A stretch of DNA of 64,000 nt from Actinomycetes bacterium (GTDB lineage Bacteria; Actinomycetota; Acidimicrobiia; Acidimicrobiales; Acidimicrobiaceae). The position numbers and the translations under genes were made by a program. Of the stretch, positions 1 through 1,403 are shown piece after piece (within the stretch, counting starts at the first letter, position 1; the number at the start of each line of letters is the position of its first letter). The stretch spans positions 1 through 64,000 of the forward strand of contig JAKCDL010000012.1 in NCBI GenBank assembly GCA_021841935.1. The letters are read 5' to 3'. The notes below the pieces were generated by a model. That model did no database searches and had not been told where the DNA came from. It saw nothing but the letters and a program-made list of their open reading frames with translations.

Positions 1-375
1 GCCTCCTCTTATCAGGAGATCGGTTTCGGTCGCAAAAGTGCTGAAGGTAGTGAGCGATCCGCAAAATCCTGTTCCAATGAGAAGTCTTATTCTCCGACGA
101 AGTCCAATATCTCTCCCCGATTGAATTAGGAGTTCTAGAAGGGCTCCGAGGATGAACGACCCTATCGTGTTAGCCATGAGGGTTGCCCATGGTATTGAAC
201 CGCGTTGAGTTGGAATCAAGTTGGCTAATTCAAAGCGAGCAAATGTTCCGGCGACACCTCCAGCGGCTATCCATGCGTAGAGAGACAACTGTCTATGGTG
301 AGGCGATTCATTTGATAAGTCATTTTTCGCAGAGCGATAGTGGCTCTTTTTGATAAGCGACGAGGAAGGGTTCAT
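1..375 (-). CDS. crcB: Fluoride ion channel CrcB/FluC, C-terminal part beyond window edge
   Basis: Reading leftward from ATG at 375, 125 codons stay open to base 1, so the C terminus lies outside the window. After a hydrophilic N-terminal tail of about 30 residues come hydrophobic segments with the family signatures: a GGVAGTFARF stretch near residue 39, an ATLMANTIGSFILG stretch near residue 67 containing the conserved Asn, and GFCGSLTTFSTF near residue 105, whose TTFSTF box lines the pore. Family knowledge: these are small dual-topology dimeric channels that expel cytoplasmic fluoride. The leader carries a fluoride riboswitch, which independently supports the call. Only the length of the missing end is unknown. 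Confidence 0.93.
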   Translation of the reverse strand, partial: MNPSSSLIKKSHYRSAKNDLSNESPHHRQLSLYAWIAAGGVAGTFARFELANLIPTQRGSIPWATLMANTIGSFILGALLELLIQSGRDIGLRRRIRLLIGTGFCGSLTTFSTFATETDLLIRGG

Positions 376-388
376 TGAAATCCAGAGT

Positions 389-475
389 CTCCTAAAAATA
401 TCTACAACTTTAGGAGTCATCAGCTTCCAAGGGAAGCGGTTTTGGTGTCATGAAACCACGGCAGAACCCATTGCC
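389..475 (-). promoter_or_regulatory. Fluoride riboswitch (crcB motif) with SD-sequestering platform
   Basis: On the minus strand the leader reads as the crcB motif. A GGC/GCC hairpin (475-460) has loop AATGGGTTCT. It is followed by a small inserted hairpin, AAAACCGC, a GCTTCC/GGAAGC stem (437-432 with 428-423), and then the diagnostic GCTGATGACTCCTA (424-411). Loop bases GGGTT can pair with GACTC (418-414; two wobbles) as the expected pseudoknot. CTCCTAAA (416-409) is exactly complementary to TTTAGGAG (396-389), which holds the AGGAG ribosome site 13 bases before the crcB start. The pseudoknot strand and the anti-SD strand overlap, which implies that fluoride binding frees the ribosome site. 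A possible -10 (TATAGT, 488-483) lies just upstream. Confidence 0.88.
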
Positions 476-522
476 AATAAAAACTATAGGGTGAATTTAC
501 ATCTTTAGGATCATTAGAGTAA

Positions 523-1046: not shown

Positions 1047-1054
1047 ACCGTTAG

Positions 1055-1403
1055 TGGAGGTGGCGGGAATTGAACCCGCGTCCTTCGGTTCCTTAGTATG
1101 GCTTCTCCGAGTGCAGCTACCAAGTAATTTTCGTTGCCAGAGTACCGGTCGCCTCTCCTCTAACACTTAGCCCGATTTGGTTTTCGTCTCTTCCTTACAG
1201 GCGTTGGTCGAGCTTATCTCTATTTGATTGCGCCCAGAACCACCCCTAAGAGCTCGGGATGGGAGGACGTCGCGCCTTTATTTAGGCAGCGAGTGCGAGC
1301 TGTGGCTCGGCGTTTATTTTTTGTACCGGCTCTTTAACGTGGTTCCGGAGACCACGACTCGCTTCTCATACCGCAAATCCCAAAGTCGAAGCCTGACACC
1401 CCC
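1055..1403 (-). ncRNA. ssrA: tmRNA (transfer-messenger RNA)
   Basis: The minus strand starts GGGGGTG (1403-1397) and ends with a T-arm (GCGGG-TTCAATT-CCCGC) followed by CACCTCC plus discriminator A (1055). The two ends pair into a 7-bp acceptor stem with G at position 3 opposite U, the alanine identity pair. CCA is not encoded. A tag frame in the middle ends in codons for NAEPQLALAA and a TAA stop (about 1311-1281), with the usual ALAA degradation signal. The exact resume codon is uncertain. The RNA rescues stalled ribosomes together with SmpB, encoded immediately upstream on the same strand. Confidence 0.93.

Follow-up and report, generated by a model that had tools for sequence, protein, structure and literature searches.

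The leader of the crcB gene at the start of the window (the whole 64,000-nt stretch of DNA analysed here) probably is a translational ON fluoride riboswitch, with an aptamer that represents an extra-hairpin variant in which a U opposite C or U is conserved at position 4 of the pseudoknot; we put the probability of this reading at about 0.8. Comparison of related sequences supports the identity of the aptamer, the pairing of the anti-Shine-Dalgarno (anti-SD) and Shine-Dalgarno (SD) arms in the family, the reality of the hairpin, the mismatch and the association between mismatch and hairpin.

Identity and anatomy of the aptamer

A scan with Rfam covariance models (cmscan) placed RF01734 at 484-404 on the minus strand with 42.2 bits, above the cut-off of 34 (E 2.5e-08 for the window). 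No second RF01734 match was found in the window at the gathering score, and this match is the only one in the whole source genome (a 2.53 Mb assembly, 86.6% complete). The result bears out the original prediction, which proposed a fluoride riboswitch, suggested this very search as a check, and was correct in its coordinates and letters; judged by its sequence, the 404-484 segment of the minus strand is a fluoride (crcB) riboswitch of a known switch type. The features of the locus are as follows.

1-375, minus strand: crcB coding sequence, ATG at 375-373 (PF02537, E 3.1e-22)
389-397, minus strand: putative SD strand UUUUAGGAG, including the ribosome site AGGAG (inverted repeat; arm covariation in the family set)
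404-484, minus strand: fluoride (crcB) riboswitch aptamer (cmscan, RF01734)
408-416, minus strand: putative anti-SD strand CUCCUAAAG, with CUCC common to the pseudoknot and U412 common to the linchpin (inverted repeat; 9-bp fold)
412-420, minus strand: linchpin bases A420 and U412, the counterparts of Bacillus cereus A40 and U48 (position by alignment; role from the text portion of PMC8752731)
413-418, minus strand: pseudoknot 3' strand GACUCC (sequence; pseudoknot pairs co-vary among relatives)
423-437, minus strand: stem P3, GCUUCC 437-432 with GGAAGC 428-423 (sequence and cmscan structure line)
443-458, minus strand: extra hairpin in the interval between P1 and AACCGC, UGGU 458-455 with ACCA 446-443 (both-sided changes at 4/4 aligned pairs in the 12-row and 45-row subclass alignments)
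460-475, minus strand: stem P1, GGCA 475-472 with UGCC 463-460, 8-nt loop (sequence and cmscan structure line)
464-469, minus strand: pseudoknot 5' strand GGGUUC (sequence; register by comparison with other aptamers; same letters in the related loci L018 and L031)
Pseudoknot pairs, minus strand: G469-C413, G468-C414, G467.U415, U466 x C416 (mismatch), U465-A417, C464-G418

The window RNA shares with the RF01734 motif P1, P3, the pseudoknot strands, the GCUGAUG core, the linchpin A and U (the segment GCTGATGACTCCTA lies at 424-411 of the minus strand) and the gene context; its departures from the motif are the hairpin added between P1 and P3 and the U x C apposition within the pseudoknot. In the text portion of PMC8752731, the A40-U48 pair of B. 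cereus is called the main linchpin of the docked state. The window RNA presumably binds fluoride. P1 shows both-sided changes at 2 of its 4 pairs in the subclass alignment. The hairpin, which had been described as an inserted TGGT/ACCA variation on the minimal aptamer, is present, with other complementary letters in its place in relatives, but is not private to the window RNA. Folded as a whole, the 131-nt stretch has no exceptional stability (z -0.73; 39 of 200 shuffles equally stable).

Between the P1 loop and the 3' tail, five of the six pseudoknot positions pair in the window; in register, the series reads G-C, G-C, G-U, U x C, U-A, C-G, with the mismatch at position 4, that is, the fourth pair along the 5' strand (position 3 in the numbering used in the text portion of PMC11077080, where position 1 is U17-G42). 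The original prediction missed this mismatch: its claim that the C and T bases of the anti-SD strand also pair in the pseudoknot holds for C413, C414 and U415 (a wobble with G467) but not for C416, which faces U466 unpaired. RNAduplex prefers a one-base slip for the window, GGGUU with GACUC, and a slipped register is possible; we prefer the in-register mismatch because members of the subclass described below that have U opposite U (GGAUCC with GGUUCC) disallow the slip.

The crcB gene and its neighbourhood

The crcB gene, previously described as truncated, is indeed cut in this sequence, but this is a matter of assembly: position 1 of the window is base 1 of the contig, and the 3' end is missing only because the gene stops at the contig end. 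In the near relatives G008 and G001, a tandem pair of crcB genes lies downstream of the aptamer. An alternative start at an ATG at 420, within the aptamer and in the crcB frame, was rejected because, as read from the sequence, it is out of frame in L018.

A tmRNA gene (1052-1403, minus strand; RF00023, 140.2 bits) lies upstream of crcB in the same orientation, and smpB is found beyond it, further upstream, at 1451-1957. Two perfect inverted repeats occupy the interval that separates the tmRNA gene from the leader of crcB, one of 8 bases at 523-547 (CAAGACCG/CGGTCTTG), terminator-like on the plus strand, and one of 9 bases at 773-793 (AAAATTTGC/GCAAATTTT). A gene for a CLC-type channel (PF00654; 4121-5518, minus strand) is located about 4 kb away.

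Probable competition of the anti-SD helix with the pseudoknot

The segments CTCCTAAA (416-409) and TTTAGGAG (396-389) of the minus strand form a perfect 8-base inverted repeat with a spacing of 12 nt, in line with the earlier claim of exact complementarity between the end of the aptamer and the strand that holds the ribosome site; as CUCCUAAA/UUUAGGAG (416-409/396-389), they fold into 9 bp, including one G-U pair, at -9.2 kcal/mol. The 3' strand of the aptamer is complementary to the SD, and this pairing and the aptamer are mutually exclusive, as expected of a translational SD-sequestering platform. Both folds claim CUCC and U412, which supports the earlier proposal that the anti-SD helix and the pseudoknot exclude each other. 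In the absence of fluoride, CUCCUAAAG would pair with UUUUAGGAG, hiding the ribosome site, whereas with fluoride, the pseudoknot would lock CUCC and the linchpin pair would hold U412, leaving the ribosome site free for synthesis of the exporter.

When positions 418-413 were fixed and the following 94 bases were dinucleotide-shuffled, the complementarity seen in the window arose by chance in 1 of 200 shuffles (p 0.01). Roughly five of the eight pairs would be expected in any case because CUCC fits any GGAG ribosome site, so that the weight is carried by a comparative test of the arm rather than by the window shuffle. The test set comprised 61 aptamers: 34 of the 42 family genomes contributed 59 matches (window included), and two came from other families. 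We kept the loci in which a four-base SD, complementary to the core of the pseudoknot, stands 2-18 nt ahead of a start codon with an open frame of 60 codons or more. The 45 loci that passed include the window; of the 16 left out, nine had no SD and start within these limits, six had a non-complementary SD and one had no register.

Beyond the core, 103 of the 190 cells were paired over 38 distinct arms, compared to a mean of 73.7 (sd 6.0) when partners were dealt between loci, a procedure that ignores kinship, and none of 5000 such shuffles reached 103. Slid registers of the arm paired at 33-42% only. Aptamer by aptamer, the top-scoring helix of the pseudoknot 3' strand outperforms shuffled sequences (p 0.05) in 26 of 60 cases. 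L018 and L031 do not exceed shuffles in the simple arm score (p 0.37 and 0.29, respectively), and the strand is still paired in both folds. Together, these comparisons support selection for the anti-SD/SD helix in the group. The distance from AGGAG to ATG is 13 nt in the window, 18 nt in L018 and 2 nt in L031, the two nearest relatives; the SD-to-ATG distance is thus poorly kept, and the exact start or ribosome site is uncertain.

The same helix could be taken for an intrinsic or factor-dependent terminator, in which case the switch would be transcriptional, but we consider this very unlikely. Overlap with a terminator is the known mode of the B. cereus riboswitch (text portion of PMC11077080), and a locus of the same genus, L004, has a hairpin followed by a run of seven T. 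However, there is no U run after the window hairpin, on account of which the terminator reading was dropped; all five terminator-like sites detected within 1-1500 of the window are on the plus strand, with none on the minus strand; and PMC13273304 reports, from an assay with E. coli polymerase, nearly no transcriptional fluoride riboswitches in Actinomycetota. Translational ON control is supported as the likeliest mode for the window, with the ON direction being the expected one. In L004 itself (G010:C280:10016-10081, minus strand), the terminator is at the same place as the anti-SD helix, and therefore both platform modes occur in the genus.

The base-level translational ON control put forward in the original prediction is accordingly the likeliest mode and has comparative support, but it is not a new mechanism; that interpretation is partly supported, being right in kind, and an SD model as well as an optional hairpin were in print in 2011. 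The legend in the R2R paper (PMC3023696, 2011) presents the hypothesis that, in the Acidothermus cellulolyticus crcB RNA, the ligand frees the SD, which is hidden when no ligand is present, as we propose for the window; this likeness is at the level of the legend rather than of individual bases. According to the same legend, a hairpin is present in 31% of crcB RNAs, likely the hairpin type seen here. The crcB motif, its genes and its overlap with terminators are covered in the text portion of PMC2864571 (Weinberg and others 2010), and RNAs of Pseudomonas syringae and Burkholderia pseudomallei serve as translational fluoride riboswitch controls in that of PMC13273304. The B. cereus crcB riboswitch, as described in the text portions of PMC11077080 and PMC8752731, resembles the window in that its expression platform also captures the pseudoknot 3' strand, and differs from it in having a terminator instead of an SD and a six-pair pseudoknot with the U17-G42 wobble at position 1.

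The pseudoknot mismatch is associated with the inserted hairpin

The combination of GGGUUC/GACUCC with the hairpin is also present in L018 and L031, which belong to the same genus. A pattern scan of genome contigs for the GGGUUC/GACUCC form gave six places, three of which are supported by Rfam (L018, L031 and Microbacterium sp. STN6, whose aptamer also has an inserted hairpin); the pattern matches in Achromobacter, a deltaproteobacterium and Symbiobacteriaceae were rejected, with no Rfam support at the pattern positions.

For a broader comparison, RF01734 matches were collected from the family and, by sampling, from the phylum (396 genomes), the class (395 genomes) and the order of G358 (298 genomes). 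Of the 232 records read, 230 were distinct, and 223 of these were annotated (seven lacked annotation); Rfam matches below the cut-off were only partly taken in. A hairpin was called automatically when 4 bp or more could form in the interval from P1 to the AACCGC stretch. Among the 223 annotated aptamers, nearly all from Actinomycetota, position 4 is mismatched in 13 of the 22 with a hairpin and in 0 of the 201 without one, and U occupies position 4 of the 5' strand in 11/22 and 0/201, respectively. Any pseudoknot mismatch is found in 17 of 22 aptamers with a hairpin compared to 9 of 201 without it. When similarity clusters are counted instead, position 4 is broken in 12/19 with and 0/96 without a hairpin, and after cleaning by hand, the mismatch at position 4 is found in 11/18 and 1/204; in the cleaning, L070, which had been found via the GGGTTC pattern, was dropped, and L165, L229 and L230, with doubtful hairpins, were moved. 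The automatic annotation placed L161 in a wrong register; on reading, its pseudoknot is imperfect. Hairpin and mismatch should both cost Rfam score, and detection should therefore not create the link. We found no report of the hairpin-mismatch association in the open-licence PubMed Central texts, figures excluded.

The association is not absolute, as L029, a related crcB leader, combines the hairpin with a complete pseudoknot. The outer U-G wobble, which is present in 129 of the 201 aptamers without a hairpin, is retained in 16 of the 42 distinct subclass rows, so that the idea of the usual outer wobble simply shifted inward does not hold cleanly. Several other deviations were observed along the way. 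The core reads GCUAAU instead of GCUGAU in L003, L007, L008, L058, L059 and L060, and four riboswitch matches, L225, L226, L227 and L210, lie within 3.4 kb (G1005:C1:3180434-3183803), with hairpin and plain forms mixed.

A hairpin-mismatch subclass in actinomycetes

We defined the subclass by two features, a mismatch at position 4 of the pseudoknot and, in the interval from P1 to AACCGC, a hairpin of 4 bp or more; the window has both, with 4 bp and U466 x C416. A model, R1, was built from twelve hairpin aptamers chosen for the mismatch, so that its further matches are biased to mismatch. R1 found matches chiefly in family f56, where 93 of 251 genomes gave one at E 0.001 when weak matches are counted, and 30 of the 32 places that were read among the matches listed are mismatched at position 4. 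One of these places, L279, coincides with training row L226, and L262 coincides with L165; among the distinct alignment rows that did not serve for training, 28 of 30 are mismatched.

Over the 42 distinct rows, position 4 is U-U in 20, U-C in 17, A-C in two, and C-C, G-U and A-U in one each, so that U faces C or U in 37. On either side of it, positions 3 and 5 form pairs without exception (42/42 distinct rows; 43/43 in the later subclass alignment). The subclass structure beats shuffles and slides, in an alignment that was itself fitted to the structure. None of the 32 R1 loci read has five consecutive T at a distance of 20-80 nt, measured from where the pseudoknot 3' strand begins. Ten downstream proteins, chosen from 30 frames, were compared to Pfam: seven are CrcB (one of these belongs to L262, where position 4 is paired), and the remaining three are a universal stress protein, a sodium/hydrogen exchanger and an NADH-dehydrogenase-like protein.

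A check independent of R1 employed the CrcB of a subclass locus as the query and Rfam at E 0.01 on nine of 42 records, all crcB regions from named plasmids. Six of the nine regions gave no match and three contain a riboswitch: those of the Rhodococcus qingshengii and Mycolicibacterium rufum plasmids have a long insert and GGAUCU against GGCUCC, mismatched at position 4, and that of the Cupriavidus oxalaticus plasmid has no insert and a complete pseudoknot. Scans of viral contigs gave 61 + 5 places, of which five passed the stem and pseudoknot filter, four as plain aptamers and one implausible. Taken together, the sequences indicate a hairpin-bearing subclass that keeps U opposite C or U in several actinomycete families and to which the window belongs.

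What the mismatch may do

The usual 5' strand of the pseudoknot is often GGAG (80 of the 134 short-joined aptamers tabulated), which copies the SD core; therefore, the pseudoknot strand and the SD are about equal competitors for CUCC. In the subclass, the 5' strand is mostly GGAU or GGGU, a poorer partner for CUCC. The best bare pseudoknot duplex of the window, in a slipped five-pair register, has -3.4 kcal/mol, compared to -6.7 kcal/mol for GGAGUU/GACUCC. Without fluoride, the SD strand should displace this weakened pseudoknot more easily; the mismatch would then be a weak point, and the hairpin next to P1 would restore the stability of the fluoride-bound fold. The weakest step of this scheme is the easing of displacement by the mismatch combined with the restoration of stability by the hairpin, a role that is suggested by the association between the two. 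That the subclass is a distinct one across several actinomycete families, with coupling between the P1-P3 hairpin and a conserved U-pyrimidine mismatch, the mismatch being a selected weak point and the hairpin repaying the lost stability, is a tentative proposal to which we give not quite an even chance.

The Thermotoga petrophila fluoride riboswitch is not known to have an extra hairpin. Its aptamer has the same architecture as that of the window, whereas its pseudoknot is GC-rich and switched poorly in the assays described in the text portion of PMC11077080. The support from this source, in which several pairs were weakened by mutation, is mixed for the weak-point idea: a pseudoknot that is too strong spoils switching, but the T. 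petrophila variant D3 (their position 3, GC to AU) alone gave no working switch, and an outer wobble was needed. The outer pair of the window, C464-G418, is not a wobble.

The same observations could signify decay, with the mismatch marking a riboswitch that no longer binds fluoride; the window pseudoknot duplex is weaker than the usual one, and, as just noted from PMC11077080, weakening of the equivalent pair alone gave no working T. petrophila switch. Decay, however, would scatter changes, whereas U faces C or U in 37 of the 42 distinct subclass rows with both neighbours paired, and seven of the ten tested downstream proteins are CrcB, all of which makes this explanation unlikely. Common descent is a serious rival, although we hold it, too, to be somewhat less than an even bet: hairpin and mismatch could be linked only by inheritance within one lineage, with no structural coupling, given that all mismatch carriers found are actinomycetes, many of them preceding crcB. 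Against a single lineage, the carriers come from several families (f1, f27, f56, f134, f135, f145 and Microbacterium) and have very different hairpin sequences, and mismatches at position 3 (C-C or U-U) also accompany hairpins in three aptamers of another build, L050 (G010:C153), L051 (G005:C56) and L166 (G173:C25).

Implications

The window itself represents ordinary fluoride defence, and its riboswitch is a correct finding of a known kind, in which the hairpin-mismatch association makes the variant worth testing. How fluoride riboswitches balance the strength of the pseudoknot against that of the competing strand is an open and active question, and a natural class with a weak point inside the helix together with a hairpin would have no simple fit to the outer-wobble rule given in the text portion of PMC11077080. 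The subclass provides ready-made test molecules, two of which are on named Rhodococcus and Mycolicibacterium plasmids.
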